A model generated the notes under the pieces. The model did no database searches. It was not told where the DNA came from and saw nothing but the letters and a program-made list of their open reading frames with translations. From Gemmatimonas phototrophica (GTDB taxonomy: Bacteria > Gemmatimonadota > Gemmatimonadetes > Gemmatimonadales > Gemmatimonadaceae), in NCBI RefSeq assembly GCF_000695095.2, contig NZ_CP011454.1, positions 1,302,001 to 1,366,000 of the forward strand: a DNA stretch of 64,000 bases, read 5' to 3'. Shown here piece by piece: positions 1 to 6,779 of this stretch. The position numbers and the translations under genes were made by a program. Every line of letters starts with the position of its first letter. The first letter of the stretch is position 1.

Positions 1-1260
1 GAAACCCCGCGTTATCATGCGCGCGAGGCGGCCATTGTGCGGGCCCGCGCCGAAGGGGCGCTGGTGGTGCTGGGCAGCGCTACCCCAAGTCTCGAAAGCT
101 GGGAGCGGGCCGATCGCGGCCAGGCCATTCGCTTGTCGCTCCCCGACCGCGCGGGGGGAGCGCAGCTGCCGCCAGTGCAGGTGGTGGACATGCGCGTGGT
201 CACCAAAGAAGCGGTCGCTGCGCGCAATCCGCATGCACCGTTCGACCCCATGCTGAGTGTCTTCAGCCCCACGTTGCTGGCGGCCATTGAATCACGGTTG
301 CATAGAGCCGAGCAGAGCCTGTTGCTGCTCAACCGGCGGGGTTTTGCGGCCTACGTACAGTGTCATGCCTGCGGGGATGTGCAGGTGTGTCCGCACTGCA
401 GCATCTCGCTTACGTATCATCGCGTCCCCGAAGCGCTGGTGTGCCACTACTGCCAGTACCAGCACGACATGCCGTCGGTGTGCCCCAAGTGTGCGAGCGA
501 CAAGCTGCAGCGGCGCGGGCTGGGCACGCAGCAGGTGGAGAAGCTGGTGGCCGAACGCTTCCCCGAGGCGCGCATAGCGCGCATGGACGTGGACACCACC
601 AGCGGTAAGTGGGCGCACACGCAGATTCTCGACCGGGTAGGGCGCGGTGAGGTGGACATTCTGCTGGGCACGCAGATGATTGCCAAGGGGCTCGACTTTC
701 CCAACGTCACGCTGGTGGGCGTCATCGATGCCGACACAGGGCTCAACCTGCCGGACTTTCGTGCGTCGGAGCGCACGTTTCAGCTGCTCAGTCAGGTGGC
801 GGGGCGGGCCGGTCGCGGCCCCAAGGGCGGTGACGTGGTGGTGCAAACACGCATGCCGCACGCGCATGCGGTGCAGCACGCGCTCACGCACGACTTTCTG
901 GGATTTGTGCGTGAGGAGTTGGGGGCGCGCCGGCATCCGGCGTATCCGCCCTTTGTGCACATTGCCAACGTAATTGTGAGCGGTGTGCATCAGCGGGCCA
1001 CGGCGGCGGCGGCTACGGAGGCCGCCGAGTGGGTCACGCAGCTCATGAAGCGTCAGGGGCTGCGCGATCTAGTGCTCGTGGGGCCGGCGCCGTGCCCCAT
1101 TGATCGCATCAAAGACCGGTGGCGCTGGCACTTTCTGCTCAAGAGCTCACAGCCCAAGCTCATGACGCGCGTGGCGCGCTATGTGGCGGAGCGCTGCCCG
1201 GTGCCCAAGGATTCCGAGCTCCGGCTCGTGGTGGACCGGGATCCGGTGAGTTTGTTGTAG
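1..1260 (+). CDS. priA: PriA primosomal DNA helicase, C-terminal part (start lies before the window)
   Basis: The reading frame is open from base 1 and begins inside the helicase core. PriA is a superfamily 2 3'-5' helicase that reloads the replisome at stalled forks. Visible landmarks are YHARE followed by GSATPS (helicase motifs), then a zinc-binding cysteine block (CHACGDVQVCPHC, CHYC, CPKC) typical of PriA, then the C-terminal helicase lobe with LLGTQMIAKGLDFPNVTLVG and QVAGRAGRG. The protein ends in DRDPVSLL. The last 75 or so codons are present a second time about 4.3 kb downstream, so this gene now ends in one of two alternative 3' ends and is separated from the aminotransferase gene that follows the second copy. 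The family assignment is very secure; only the N-terminal DNA-binding part is missing from view. Confidence 0.96.
   Translation, partial: ETPRYHAREAAIVRARAEGALVVLGSATPSLESWERADRGQAIRLSLPDRAGGAQLPPVQVVDMRVVTKEAVAARNPHAPFDPMLSVFSPTLLAAIESRLHRAEQSLLLLNRRGFAAYVQCHACGDVQVCPHCSISLTYHRVPEALVCHYCQYQHDMPSVCPKCASDKLQRRGLGTQQVEKLVAERFPEARIARMDVDTTSGKWAHTQILDRVGRGEVDILLGTQMIAKGLDFPNVTLVGVIDADTGLNLPDFRASERTFQLLSQVAGRAGRGPKGGDVVVQTRMPHAHAVQHALTHDFLGFVREELGARRHPAYPPFVHIANVIVSGVHQRATAAAATEAAEWVTQLMKRQGLRDLVLVGPAPCPIDRIKDRWRWHFLLKSSQPKLMTRVARYVAERCPVPKDSELRLVVDRDPVSLL
1034..1260 (+). repeat. Left copy of a long direct repeat formed by the priA 3' end
   Basis: This stretch matches 5347-5573 without gaps. Comparing by eye I count about 17 differences in 227 bases, mostly at third codon positions, with a perfectly matching block of more than 70 bases in the middle. 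Both copies end at the same stop codon. The repeat brackets the island at 1261-5288. Confidence 0.9.
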
Positions 1261-1289
1261 GAGAAAGATGAACCAAGGCAGCCGTTCAT

Positions 1290-1835
1290 CTAGCGGTACT
1301 TGATGGGGAGTCTGTCCACTCGAAAGTGGCCGCCCGGCTCAAAGCTCTGACGCGTAGCCCAGTTTGGTCGAGCGTTGCGAAGGCGATTGATGAAAGAAAG
1401 TTCGTTGATTTCGAGCTCAAGGACCTGTGCGGTAAGGCGAGCACGACCTGAGAGTGCGGTTTGACACTCCATTATCGGAGTAGCGGGAGTGGCGCACAAA
1501 TAAAGTGTGCTGGTGCTGACGGCCCGTTGATGGTTGCTGGTGGACATCGCGCTGTCCGGCCGAAGCACAACCGTCAGGGTTTCTCCGTCAAAGCTGATCT
1601 TCCAGCCATAGTAGCCGACGATGGGTGGGACAGGCTTGTCGAGCAGGAAATGGGGAGGAGGAAACCGTACGATCGCGAACGTGCGATGGACCGAGGGGCC
1701 GGCGTCAGAAGCCGTTGTAACTGCGCCCGCTTTACCCTCTGTTCGCATGCTCGGCTGCGCCGATGTGCGCTTGCTGATGCCAACGTGCTGGAGGCTCAGA
1801 ATGATGATGGCAAACCACGCACTCTCAGATATCAC
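1290..1835 (-). CDS. Hypothetical exported or membrane-anchored protein, 181 aa
   Basis: I do not recognise the family. The start is a GTG that overlaps the TGA of the upstream gene (1832-1834) in a GTGA arrangement, so the two are probably translationally coupled. The N-terminus (about residues 7-15, AIIILSL) is hydrophobic and could be a weak signal or anchor. The middle holds a Pro-rich stretch and a segment around YYGWKISFDGETLTVVL that looks like beta strands. Two cysteines (LCATP, MECQT) are about ten residues apart. It closes the minus-strand gene row of the island and sits tail to tail with priA. The coupling suggests it works with the 682-aa secreted protein; nothing else can be said about its role. 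Confidence 0.6.
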   Translation of the reverse strand: MISESAWFAIIILSLQHVGISKRTSAQPSMRTEGKAGAVTTASDAGPSVHRTFAIVRFPPPHFLLDKPVPPIVGYYGWKISFDGETLTVVLRPDSAMSTSNHQRAVSTSTLYLCATPATPIMECQTALSGRARLTAQVLELEINELSFINRLRNARPNWATRQSFEPGGHFRVDRLPIKYR

Positions 1836-3880
1836 TTATGCGTATCCTTCGGAACAAGAGTGAAGCCAATGGCATTTGAAACTTCGCGTCCATTTTTCAG
1901 TCGCATGGCGATGGCGATAGCATATGGTCCAGGCGCGAGTGTACCTAGATTGAGTTGCAGAGTCCGCATCTGCACCGGCACTGGACCTAACAACGTACTC
2001 ACATGTCCACGCGGTTCATTGTCCTGCCAACGGACCTCAATCGAACTGTTATTTCTTGGGGCAATTCCTGTATTCACCGCAATACGGCGTAGCGCGCTCG
2101 CCGTATTCGTAGAGGCAACTCGCACGGTGGTGATGGCGCTGTCCGAAGGCGCTATTCCATACGTCTCCCAGTAAAGTGCAATGGACGGAGCGTCCAGAGG
2201 AATGCGGTCGTTCGGACGCATGTAGGTCAACAGTGCATCACGTGGCGAACGCAACGTAGTCTCCGGCACCGCGCCCAATAACGCCAGTTCGGACATCCCG
2301 ATATCGCCCTCCAGTTTATCCAGAGGCGGTGGCACCACAATCCCATAGCGAACGCGTGCCGCCATGGAGGGATCGGAAACTCCAATTGCTTCCACTGCGA
2401 GTAGTCTTGGACCGCTCGCAACCGGTCCGCGCAGGTAGACTGCGGAGCCCGCGTTAGCTATGGTCTGCGCTAGGGAATCCACATTGGCAGGGCCGGTCGT
2501 GGCGAGCAGCATGACGTCGAATCTCGAAGAGGAATCCCGAAAGGCTGGATGCGTAAGCGGGACCGAGATCGCAGTCTCTACGTAGTTCTGCCGGCGCACA
2601 AAAAAGTGTTGCCCGTTGTCCAATTGTGTGAGCCGATAGTCGGGTTGAAAGTGCTCCCAGGGCCACCAAGCAGTCGCTGGGTGGCCAAGAGAATCGGCGG
2701 GGTGGAGCTGCCAATCGCTCGCCGTAGATAGGAATGGCGCTGCGATGGCGCTCCACGACGGCATGGTCGATACGCCCTGCGTGGAGTATTCGAATGTCGA
2801 GTATGGCGGTGATGGAGGGGCGGGATTCCGCCTGCTGACGCGGAAAAACGTCTGCCATTGATCGTCAATCGTCCCAAGCGCGGCAGTATAGGTAGGCCAG
2901 CCGTAGCGTTGCAACATGACGGCAAGGGCATCGCCACCACGTTCGATATCGAACGAGTAGCGCTCATCCTGTACAATAGCCTGACGCAGCAGAAGTTCCA
3001 TTCGTCGTACATTCTGTTCCACGTATCGTGCATTACCGGCGATCCGAAATAGAGGATCTGCGAGCCACCACACGCGGGTGTTCAATGCAGCCTTCTCGGC
3101 GCAACCGCTCGACGTATAGTCTGACGACTCAACGGAGGGAAATAACGTTGTCAAGTCTTCCCATGAGCACCGTTGGTCTGCCGGCATGGCCGCCAGCATG
3201 CCGGTAAAGGACTTCTCCGAGACAATGGTAGAATCCTGATGGGCAAACACGAGGCCTCGCAGCCCCTCGCACCACCACTGTGGTGACGAGCACGCTAAAG
3301 CCGCGTCGTGAGCCTCGCCAAAGTTCCGGCCATCAAGCCATAGGCGGACGAGTTGACCCGCTAGCCACGGTTGATTCAAGCGGCCAGCATGTTTGGCCCG
3401 GAGTCGATCAATCAACAGCACCCGCTCACGCGCAATGGTCGCTCTTTCCGCAGGTAAGAGCGCGCCGTCACGCCAGCGTTTTTCGTCCTTAGCGGAAGCG
3501 AAGGGGGTACCTAGGAGCCAGGAAGGACACACACCGAAGCTCTGACGTTGTCCTTGAATCATTTGGTACTGCTCTCCCGGGAGCCCCCGATCCGGAGCTT
3601 CTGCTTGCGCGATAAATCCGAGTCGATCCAGGAAATGATGCTGGTAGCAGTTTGCGTGAAGTAGGCGTTGCTGTCGCTCAGTTTTCGTGAGGCGTACGCG
3701 CCGATATTCTTCGCTTCGCTGCCAGGCCGTCTGCCACTGTGCGTTGAATTCGCTGATTGCAAGGCGAGCTTCCGGCGTTTCACCAACTCTAATCTGGCCC
3801 GCGAACGCTGACTCCCCTGGCTCAGTATTGGCAAGTGCCGCCAACAGCAAAAGGGAACTAAGAAATATGCGAAACATCAT
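1832..3880 (-). CDS. Large secreted hypothetical protein, 682 aa
   Basis: The family is not recognised. The N-terminus MMFRIFLSSLLLLAALA followed by a small-residue region is a clear Sec signal peptide, so the protein is periplasmic or surface-bound. The first half (about residues 40-320) is alpha-helical, Trp-rich and holds paired cysteines (CSSPQWWCEG, RCSWEDL, SGCAEK); this resembles helical-repeat proteins but I see no clean TPR consensus. The second half (from about 380) is beta-rich and ends in an immunoglobulin-like segment (LQLNLGTLAPGPYAIAIAMR) of the kind found at the ends of secreted proteins. It overlaps the downstream 181-aa gene by 4 bases and follows the DsbA-type gene after 100 bases. 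With several cysteines it is a plausible client of that oxidoreductase. Confidence 0.7.
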   Translation of the reverse strand: MMFRIFLSSLLLLAALANTEPGESAFAGQIRVGETPEARLAISEFNAQWQTAWQRSEEYRRVRLTKTERQQRLLHANCYQHHFLDRLGFIAQAEAPDRGLPGEQYQMIQGQRQSFGVCPSWLLGTPFASAKDEKRWRDGALLPAERATIARERVLLIDRLRAKHAGRLNQPWLAGQLVRLWLDGRNFGEAHDAALACSSPQWWCEGLRGLVFAHQDSTIVSEKSFTGMLAAMPADQRCSWEDLTTLFPSVESSDYTSSGCAEKAALNTRVWWLADPLFRIAGNARYVEQNVRRMELLLRQAIVQDERYSFDIERGGDALAVMLQRYGWPTYTAALGTIDDQWQTFFRVSRRNPAPPSPPYSTFEYSTQGVSTMPSWSAIAAPFLSTASDWQLHPADSLGHPATAWWPWEHFQPDYRLTQLDNGQHFFVRRQNYVETAISVPLTHPAFRDSSSRFDVMLLATTGPANVDSLAQTIANAGSAVYLRGPVASGPRLLAVEAIGVSDPSMAARVRYGIVVPPPLDKLEGDIGMSELALLGAVPETTLRSPRDALLTYMRPNDRIPLDAPSIALYWETYGIAPSDSAITTVRVASTNTASALRRIAVNTGIAPRNNSSIEVRWQDNEPRGHVSTLLGPVPVQMRTLQLNLGTLAPGPYAIAIAMRLKNGREVSNAIGFTLVPKDTHK

Positions 3881-3980
3881 CGAAGTACGCGTACAGAATG
3901 CATGTTAAACATTCACCCCCTGCGTAAAGATTCCAGTTGAAGCTTTACGGTTTTATGATCTATTCGAATAATTCGGGTTG

Positions 3981-4660
3981 CTAGCGACGCGCCGTTGTGT
4001 TTGGCTGCTCTCTCCCCAAGGAAAGTAATGAATCCAGCATTGGCCCTGACGGTACGCCGGAAAGCTGCACGCCTCCATTGACGAGGATTGAGGGGGTCCC
4101 CCTCATGCCCAATTTTCGTGCTGTGTCCCCGTCGCGTTGAATGCGACGACTAATAGAGTCGTCCTTCATACATTTGTCGAACAACTGCATATCTTCGACT
4201 CCCGCGTCACGTGCAAAGTTTCTCCAATCTACTTTTCCGAGATGCTGCTGCGAAGCGAAGAGTATATCGTGCATCTTTTCAAACCGACCCTGATCTGAGG
4301 CGCACTCAGATGCCCTAGCGGCAGCTTCTGCGAATGGATGCGATGGCAGTGTTAAGTGTCTGTAGACCACAGTGATGCTTGGGTCAATTCTGTTCCTGTA
4401 TTCCTGAATTCTATCATGTAGAACTTTGCAAGCCGGACACTGATAATCGGAGAAGACAAGAATGGCAGCCTGTTTTCGACTAGGCCCAATGACGTTTCCC
4501 GTTGCGAAATAGTTGACCCATTCTTTTACTACCGGGGGCGACTGGCTCTATCACTATTGATCGTTTCACGTCGAAGTGTAGACCGAACGACAATAGTAGT
4601 GGTTACCACAGCGCAGACTACCAAGGTGCTATTCATTACGACGGAAAGCAGCTTTGCCAT
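3981..4660 (-). pseudogene. DsbA-family thiol-disulfide oxidoreductase, apparently frameshifted
   Basis: Translation from 4550 down to 3981 gives an almost complete DsbA/thioredoxin-fold protein. It has the active site CPAC (cysteine codons at 4437-4439 and 4428-4430) in the context VFSDYQCPACK, a helical insert, and the cis-proline loop GMRGTPSILVNG. In that frame a stop lies at 4548-4550 and no ATG or GTG occurs before the CPAC motif; the first possible start (GTG at 4370) would drop the active site. The missing N-terminus is in another frame: an ATG at 4660 begins MAKLLSVVMNSTLVVCAVV, a signal or membrane segment that runs into the overlap near 4530-4550. The junction contains a run of five C on the coding strand, a typical indel spot. 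It is either a real frameshift, programmed slippage or a sequencing error. The neighbouring cysteine-rich peptide is a likely substrate. Confidence 0.72.
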
Positions 4661-4768
4661 TGAGGTAGCCACGAAATCTTGCCGGTTTGGGGGAATCGCT
4701 AGAGTTCTCGGTTGCCAGAATAGCTGCGGACGGAGGCCAAGGATGCAGCCGTCCGTCCGCATTGAAGC

Positions 4769-5056
4769 TCATCCGCAGAGCATCACACCATCGCATGGGT
4801 TTGACTGCGACTGGTAAGTCACGCTGCCTGCAGGCTCGTTGTGCTCATCGTCCCACAAGCAGACAACAGACACAGGGCACCACCATAATCCACCGTCGTA
4901 GTAGCCACTTGCCGAGGCCATCTCACAAAATGCTTGGCCCTCTTGAGATGTGCACGGTCGGCTACTGGTTTCAGCGTGGGCACTCTCTACTGAAGAGATA
5001 ACTGCGGCTCCTGCAAGTGCCACTACGGCTGAAATCTTTCCATTTACAGTCAACAT
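4769..5056 (-). CDS. Small secreted cysteine-rich peptide, 95 aa
   Basis: The start ATG at 5056 is preceded by AAGGAG at good spacing; an upstream GTG at 5119 in the same frame lacks such support. The N-terminus (MLTVNGKISAVVALAGAAVI, ending near SAHA) is a classic Sec signal peptide with an AxA-type cleavage site. The predicted mature part is about 67 residues with six cysteines, aromatic and acidic, and ends in Cys-Gly. The pattern suggests up to three disulfides. The next gene downstream on the same strand is a DsbA-type oxidoreductase, which fits oxidative folding of this peptide. I do not recognise the family. A toxin, bacteriocin-like peptide, surface ligand or structural peptide are all open. 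Confidence 0.68.
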   Translation of the reverse strand: MLTVNGKISAVVALAGAAVISSVESAHAETSSRPCTSQEGQAFCEMASASGYYDGGLWWCPVSVVCLWDDEHNEPAGSVTYQSQSNPCDGVMLCG

Positions 5057-5288
5057 CGCTGCTCCTTGATGGACTTGCTTCACTAATCTCGGCGACAATG
5101 CGCCCGGCTCCGCAATCACGAAGCGCGTCGACGTTAAGGTTCGTTTCGAAGCCTGTCAAGATGGGGATCTGCAATACGAATAGTTCTTTGTCGAGCTGGA
5201 CAATACCGAGAGTTGACGCAGGACGACTCGTTTCCATTTCACTGGAAGAGGTTTAACGATGCGTATCATTCATCTCATATCATTTTAG

Positions 5289-5573
5289 GATCGGCTGAAT
5301 TTTGCGGCTGGTGAGGTTGCGGCTTTTAGGGAAGCCTCCGAATGGGTGACGAAGCTTGTGAAGAGTCAGGGGCTGCGCGACCTGGTGCTGGTGGGGCCGG
5401 CACCGTGTCCCATTGATCGCATTAAAGACCGGTGGCGCTGGCACTTTCTGCTCAAGAGCTCACAGCCCAAGCTCATGACGCGCGTGGCGCGCTATGTGGC
5501 GGAGCGGTGCCCGGTGCCCAAGGATTCCGAGCTGCGGCTGGTGGTGGACCGCGATCCGGTGAGTTTGTTGTAG
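5289..5573 (+). pseudogene. Second copy of the priA 3' end (gene fragment)
   Basis: The frame encodes the last 75 residues of PriA from QGLRDLVLVGPAPCPIDRIK to DRDPVSLL, preceded by about 20 residues of weaker similarity (EVAAFREASEWVTKLVKS). From QGLRD on the protein is identical to the intact copy at 1034-1260, although the DNA differs at about ten third positions in that part. Such silent divergence means both copies were once selected as coding sequence, so they most likely come from two different strains rather than from a recent local duplication. An in-frame stop lies at 5286-5288. A GTG at 5346 could start translation but no ribosome-binding site is evident. The fragment sits 51 bases before the aminotransferase gene, so this may be the ancestral resident 3' end of priA. 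Confidence 0.85.
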
Positions 5574-5624
5574 GCTTGGGCGCTGCGGGTTTCACCGTGC
5601 TGGTGGTCGCTCTAGTTTACGGGA

Positions 5625-6779
5625 ATGTCCGCCACTCTCGAGAGCATTCCGCCGTATGTGTTTTACGAGCTTGACGCCCGTCGTGCCGCTGCGCGCGCCG
5701 CGGGGAAGTCGCTCATTGATGTTGGTATTGGCAGTCCGGATGGCCCAATTCCGCCCGTGGTGGTGGAGGCCATGCAACGGGCCGCGGCCGACCGTCAGCT
5801 GAGCGGGTATCCGCACTTTCAGGCGCATCCGGCGTTTCAGCAGGCGGTGGCGGGCTACCTTGGTGCACGCTTTGGCGTGTCGGTGAATCCAGCCAAAGAG
5901 CTGCTCGCGCTGGCCGGGTCAAAAGAGGGCATTGCCGAGTTGATTCTGTCGCATACCCGCGCGGGTGATGTGGTGCTGATACCAGAGGTGTACTACCCGG
6001 TGTACGCGCGGGCCACGCTGCTGGCGGGGGCGGAGCCAGTGTTTGTGCCGTTCCTGTCCGACGGACGGCTCGATCTTGACGCGATTACGCCAGCGCAGGC
6101 GGCGCGCGCCAAAGTGATGATCGTGAATTACCCGGGGAATCCCACCACCACCTCGGTCTCGCTGGACGAGCTGGCGCGCTACGTGGAGTTCGCTCGCGTA
6201 CACGACATCCTGCTCTTGAGTGATCTGGCGTACAGCGAGCTGTCGTTTGACGGCTACCAGGTGCCCAGCGTGCTGCAGGTGCCGGGCGCACATGATGTGG
6301 CCGTGGAAACGCACACCTGCAGCAAGAGCTTCAACATGGCCGGCGTGCGCATTGCGTTCGTGGCAGGCCAGGCGGCAGCCATTGCCCGGGCGGACAGTTA
6401 TCGCTCCAATATTGGCTACGGCGTCTCCACCATGGCGCAGCTGGCGGGAGCGGCGGCGTTCACGCATCACGTCGATATCGTGCCGCCTATTGTGGCCGAG
6501 TATCGCGCACGACGTGATGCCATTGTGAGCGCGTTCAATGCCGGCGGATGGCCGGTGAGCGCGCCACGGTCCACCATGTACCTGTGGCTCGACGTGCCGG
6601 CGGGCTTTGGCGACTGGGAATGGGTGGATGCGCTCATTGCCGGGCCGGGTGTGGTGGTGACACCTGGATTGGCATTTGGTGAAGCGGGCCGGGGGAAGTT
6701 TCGCGTGAGCCTGGTGCAGCCCTCGGAGAAGCTGGTGCTGGCTGCCGGCGGCATTGTGGCCACGGTGCCGAGGCACTGA
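5625..6779 (+). CDS. dapL: LL-diaminopimelate-type class I/II aminotransferase
   Basis: A 384-aa PLP-dependent fold-type I aminotransferase. It shows the LPDGP-like N-terminal loop (IGSPDGPIPPVVVEAM), the substrate region SGYPHFQAHPAFQQAV, the NPTTT loop (VNYPGNPTTT), the Asp/Tyr pair SDLAYSEL and the PLP lysine in ETHTCSKSFNMAGVRIAF. The last motif is characteristic of the DapL/AlaT-like group, which forms LL-diaminopimelate from tetrahydrodipicolinate and glutamate for lysine and peptidoglycan synthesis. Succinyldiaminopimelate or alanine aminotransferase activity remains possible. Before the island it would have followed priA directly; now only the priA fragment lies upstream. A strong hairpin follows. 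Confidence 0.8.
   Translation: MSATLESIPPYVFYELDARRAAARAAGKSLIDVGIGSPDGPIPPVVVEAMQRAAADRQLSGYPHFQAHPAFQQAVAGYLGARFGVSVNPAKELLALAGSKEGIAELILSHTRAGDVVLIPEVYYPVYARATLLAGAEPVFVPFLSDGRLDLDAITPAQAARAKVMIVNYPGNPTTTSVSLDELARYVEFARVHDILLLSDLAYSELSFDGYQVPSVLQVPGAHDVAVETHTCSKSFNMAGVRIAFVAGQAAAIARADSYRSNIGYGVSTMAQLAGAAAFTHHVDIVPPIVAEYRARRDAIVSAFNAGGWPVSAPRSTMYLWLDVPAGFGDWEWVDALIAGPGVVVTPGLAFGEAGRGKFRVSLVQPSEKLVLAAGGIVATVPRH

Follow-up and report, generated by a model that had tools for sequence, protein, structure and literature searches.

How a block of lower-GC genes came to lie between two copies of the same gene end is the question raised by the priA locus of Gemmatimonas phototrophica, located at the left end of the 64,000-nucleotide stretch analysed here (the window; contig NZ_CP011454.1, positions 1,302,001–1,366,000; plain coordinates refer to it). 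The last 227 bp of priA are present again downstream in direct orientation and in frame, with the same TAG stop and 212 of 227 bases shared (93.4% identity), which confirms the duplicated priA 3′ end reported in a preliminary description. The ungapped similarity of the two copies can be followed, with decay, over 256 bp (1006–1261 and 5319–5574; 91.4%), and stops one base beyond the stop codon. The same description had placed about 4 kb of lower-GC, minus-strand genes between the copies, and this also holds: the island is 4.0 kb long, all of its genes (1290 to about 5056) lie on the minus strand, and the GC content of the module is 55.5%, as compared with 63.8% for the remainder of the window, 64.4% for the upstream 20 kb, and about 64% for the genome. 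The features of the region are listed in Table 1.

Table 1. Features of the priA–aminotransferase region, given as positions in the window
Feature	Position	Strand	Basis or remark
priA (helicase), 3′ part; gene start upstream of the window	1–1260	+	PF18074, PF18319, PF00271; 757-aa open frame in genome
Copy 1 of the priA 3′ end, inside the predicted functional gene	1034–1260	+	Copy alignment
83-bp tract identical between the copies, the longest such tract in the repeat	1111–1193	+	Copy alignment
181-aa protein, beside the 682-aa gene wherever examined	1290–1835	-	Matches no known family
682-aa predicted secreted protein, sporadic family	1832–3880	-	Found only in Gemmatimonadota
DsbA-like thioredoxin-fold gene, CPAC motif, split in two frames near 4530–4550	3981–4762	-	PF13462, PF01323
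Small Cys-rich protein with signal-like start; ORF 4769–5119 from GTG, likely ATG at 5056	4769–5056	-	ORF reading
Decayed stretch of priA similarity preceding copy 2	5319–5346	+	Copy alignment
Copy 2 of the priA tail, an orphan piece at the native place before the aminotransferase gene	5347–5573	+	PF18074
Spacer of about 53 bp, as long as the empty sites of G018 and G006	5574–5624		Comparison with relatives
Aminotransferase class I/II, conserved right neighbour	5625–6779	+	PF00155; synteny

An artefact of assembly, conceivable since the duplication is seen in one genome only and the frameshift in the DsbA-like gene could be a sequencing error, is extremely improbable. The copies differ at 15 of the 227 sites, the same module is found in the same order in other genomes, and the duplication does not resemble an assembly duplicate because its mismatches are concentrated in one part and the genome is a single contig of 4,716,552 bases (99.96% completeness). 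Local direct repeats of 50–700 bp were few in the 884 kb of the genome scanned (two 400-kb stretches, the window, and 20 kb upstream). Since the priA pair was the sole local duplication of a protein-gene end among them, the remaining inspected repeats being intergenic repeats, one duplicated tRNA-like fragment, and other non-gene-end matches, duplications of this type are rare in the genome.

The module between the copies consists of four genes in the order Cys-rich small protein, DsbA-like protein, 682-aa protein, and 181-aa protein. The most natural guess for its role is that the secreted Cys-rich protein is matured by its own DsbA-like enzyme. The split of the DsbA-like gene (4529–4762 and 3981–4370) is either a frameshift or a sequencing error; an intact 220-aa homologue is encoded in locus L112. 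A run of G is located at about 4530–4536, near the break. No Pfam or NCBIfam family matched the 682-aa protein, the copy number of whose family varies within the genus, and its AlphaFold model (mean pLDDT, 53) was too poor to be kept as a search query. All four genes are also found, identically ordered, in G009 and G018 with about 50% protein identity, and other genomes have the 682/181-aa pair alone, at other sites, where a gene-end duplication was not detected. In G001, palindromic intergenic repeats (L116, 3501–3847 and 6572–6817) flank this gene pair; an integron was considered for them and dropped, as the sequence consists of intergenic palindromic repeats with no attC evidence.

The synteny of priA and the aminotransferase gene is retained across the genus. 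We compared the 24 other same-genus genomes having both genes on one contig, and found an empty junction of 12–111 bp in 16 and different cargo in the remaining eight. Both arrangements for which the preliminary description had proposed a search, namely relatives with priA directly before its downstream gene (named dapL there; an aminotransferase class I/II gene by PF00155, and a putative dapL) and strains with other cargo at the junction, thus exist, and the genus does not carry one common insert, the outcome named there as speaking against a mobile island. The gap is 53 bp in the closest relatives, G018 and G006, and because the spacer behind copy 2 has this length, copy 2 sits at the native position. 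The cargo of four genomes is a 1.4-kb gene present in related copies (an AMP-binding enzyme, judging from the domains of the G015 copy); a histidine kinase gene occupies the junction in G010, a tricorn/S41 protease gene in G026, and short inserts in G013 and G022, while G052, from another genus, has a release-factor-like gene there. A translated search detected no priA fragment in any of the alternative inserts, and no further adjacent copy of the priA tail could be recognised among the matches listed for 395 phylum genomes; a second PriA-tail match was located elsewhere in three other genomes (G036, at a contig start, G386, and G375). Therefore, the junction is a place where accessory genes settle, and the priA duplication is a single case.

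In G009 and G018, both metagenome assemblies, the module occupies a different junction, between convergent SDR and anti-sigma genes that are direct neighbours in G029 and G025 (40–45 bp). The order in G009 is anti-sigma gene, module, SDR end, anti-sigma end, SDR end, unrelated cargo, a 54-bp anti-sigma end, and SDR gene, with the stacked 3′ ends of both genes at 5914–6174 and 13959–14122 of L179 (C19:29000–43779). The module is bordered in G009 by an 84-bp repeat of the anti-sigma end (97.6% identity), and a 103-bp repeat of the SDR end (93%) is also found at the junction carrying the module (G009/G018). The unrelated cargo, in which alpha/beta hydrolase, regulator, and ABC-type genes could be read from the sequence, is flanked by 132-bp copies of the SDR/anti-sigma junction (85.6%). 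In G018 (L113), whose order is inferred from contig overlaps, the same join of anti-sigma and SDR fragments lies between two related cassettes. The gene-end fragments at this junction are partly decayed. A circular 4.4-kb element in G018 was considered and rejected; because the 41-bp overlap of its contig ends also occurs in contig C192, a single unit in a row of related cassettes is the better reading. In the genome studied, SDR and anti-sigma genes are separated by 594 bp of palindromic repeats (L178, 2107–2701; C1:3557606–3558201), comprising large imperfect palindromes together with a 172-bp direct repeat.

Genes for mobility were sought in the island and across the genome. Searches of the island genes against Pfam, NCBIfam, and PHROGs detected no integrase, transposase, phage, or plasmid gene, and PADLOC gave no defence match for the island. 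A genome-wide search with PF00589 found four tyrosine-recombinase genes, all distant, the nearest being 0.8 Mb from the island. A survey of phages, plasmids, and viral contigs for priA-tail fragments yielded nothing useful, with one weak 42-residue phage match (43% identity; E = 0.004).

Prophage e14 in icd and similar elements supply the 3′ end of a protein gene, leaving the displaced host end as a fragment, and e14 itself encodes an integrase and uses a fixed core site. A gene-restoring element of this kind, with its core in priA and its integrase lost or encoded elsewhere, would have provided copy 1 as the new 3′ end and displaced the old end as copy 2. The layout is identical, priA being left whole with the displaced end beyond the insert and the similarity ending one base past the stop, and the genome does encode tyrosine recombinases; however, these are far from the island, which contains no integrase or remnant of one, and the relatives of the module are found at another junction, beside ends of other genes and with different repeat lengths. 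Furthermore, no second genome with an element at priA, and no recurrent use of the site, was recognised in the 395 phylum genomes, among the matches listed. We therefore consider such an element unlikely. The earlier proposal, an element inserting at the priA 3′ end and restoring the gene, is borne out as to the island of foreign composition and the intact priA, whereas an integrase-type element is not supported; the observation that no integrase is visible is upheld in and near the island. The suggestion that priA is an integrase target or hotspot likewise finds no support, given the lack of a recombinase in or near the island, other cargos without a priA copy, no second case recognised in the 395 genomes, and the different junction used by the module elsewhere. 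Since that junction carries duplicated ends of other genes, priA is not special. Finding the 3′ end of a gene duplicated next to an island does not, alone, point to an integrase-type element.

The two copies of the priA tail differ unevenly along their length. From 1006 to 1052, 11 codons differ in about 15, six of them nonsynonymously, whereas the part from 1053 up to the stop has 10 differing codons out of 68, each of these changes being synonymous (Fisher p = 0.012 between the two parts; 10 of 10 synonymous changes would have a chance of about 1e-5 without constraint). The bases shared with relatives also change along the copies, being those of copy 1 upstream and those of copy 2 downstream of the 83-bp identical tract. 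The ratio of copy 1 to copy 2 matches, upstream then downstream, is 15:1 then 0:4 in G016 (p = 0.001), 14:4 then 1:3 in G018 (p = 0.077), and 13:5 then 1:3 in G006 (p = 0.12), from few sites, the values for G018 and G006 not being significant by themselves. Because the position of the cut was chosen with the tract already known and the relatives do not form independent samples, this result does no more than suggest a mosaic, which would fit a reciprocal switch of parental types at the tract.

The diverged 5′ part and the well-kept 3′ part of copy 2 could also be accounted for if the priA tail had been duplicated in place, as a small tandem or a long target duplication, with cargo arriving between the copies and later gene conversion keeping the 3′ part while the 5′ part decayed. 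We judge this course of events to be rather unlikely. Beyond 1053, the changes that can clearly be assigned to copy 2 (polarity read from the alignment) number three, and all are synonymous (p about 0.03), which is not expected of a free pseudogene, and the island is foreign in composition, with relatives having no tandem tail of any kind. A long target-site duplication in particular was rejected, as divergence in the 5′ part of copy 2 would not be expected from it.

The duplicated tail, the junctions that are empty in relatives, the foreign base composition, the conservation of the module, the lack of a recognisable recombinase, and the gene-end duplicates beside the module elsewhere lead us to favour, with moderate confidence, a horizontally acquired, integrase-free cassette, in which priA-tail-plus-module DNA was circularised or captured and entered by one RecA-type crossover in the priA tail. 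A donor priA 3′ end and the module would have been circularised or captured as one unit, and a single homologous crossover inside the priA tail, probably in the 83-bp identical tract, would have inserted this unit into the chromosome. The left product would then be the host priA 5′ part joined to the donor tail (copy 1, functional), and the right product the start of the donor tail continuing into that of the host (copy 2, before the aminotransferase gene). The crossover can tentatively be placed because the parental types are still distinguishable in the duplicated gene end, and a single crossover of donor tail and module predicts exactly this layout together with the reciprocal switch. We infer the circular intermediate, the crossover position, a natural transformation route, and the donor. 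Because the 5′ part of copy 2 is far more diverged, one recent exchange with one donor needs later decay or gene conversion, and a donor in which priA is immediately followed by the module was not found. The genome encodes ComEC, so DNA uptake is possible, and a search for Ku showed it to be absent.

The presence of ComEC is also compatible with homology-facilitated illegitimate recombination, known in competent bacteria (PMC3240628), in which linear donor DNA would have crossed over in priA on one side and been end-joined on the other, with no circle. This route is quite improbable, since its usual outcome is an insertion coupled with a deletion, not a duplication (PMC3240628), and the diverged priA sequence at the start of copy 2 would be left unexplained.

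The single crossover of a donor tail and module has a close parallel in Escherichia coli, where re-ligated linear DNA entering in this way duplicates part of the target gene end; such duplications were detected by diagnostic PCR in 56 of 60 clones and measured 109–950 bp in the 14 sequenced (PMC3240628). As in these Campbell-type integrants, part of a gene end is duplicated beside the inserted DNA, and the priA island may, by analogy, work like a putative integrant of this type. The E. coli integrants are RecA-dependent laboratory plasmids (PMC3240628), whereas the event proposed here, with its putative RecA dependence, is read from a natural genome. The minimal mobile elements of Neisseria are differing whole-gene cassettes located between the same conserved genes, having no mobility genes, and their entry has been attributed to homologous recombination (Saunders and Snyder 2002, as described in PMC3898611). 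The present junction is similar to them, as so described, in that different states (16 empty, 8 with other cargo, and this module) are found between the same two conserved genes and in that no recombinase, phage, or defence family was detected in the island; it differs from the standard description given there in the duplicated priA tail and in the several gene-end fragments stacked at the SDR/anti-sigma junction. Judging from sequence, the priA–aminotransferase junction behaves as a putative minimal mobile element site, and movement by homologous recombination alone is likewise putative. We read the island as foreign DNA most plausibly taken up through ordinary homologous recombination, and not as an integrating element of a new type. 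It offers an example from nature of genes being gained with no mobile-element enzyme involved.

Such events seem to recur in the genus, to judge from the gene ends stacked at the SDR/anti-sigma junction, which are the feature that could yet prove to be something more. It is conceivable, yet doubtful, that RecA drives a system of cassettes in Gemmatimonas, where intergenic modules would carry along the short 3′ ends of conserved genes; through this portable homology they would enter, stack, leave, and regenerate the host gene with no recombinase of their own. Two further observations concern other sites. Two copies of a 62-bp tRNA-Leu-like sequence, separated by 2.7 kb, are present in the genome studied (C1:2306909–2306970 and 2309646–2309707; loci L208–L227), and may mark a small tRNA-targeted island. 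In G006 (L180, 1930–2100) and G009 (L179), the second cargo has a border that, by eye only, resembles what is left of an IS3-type transposase OrfA.
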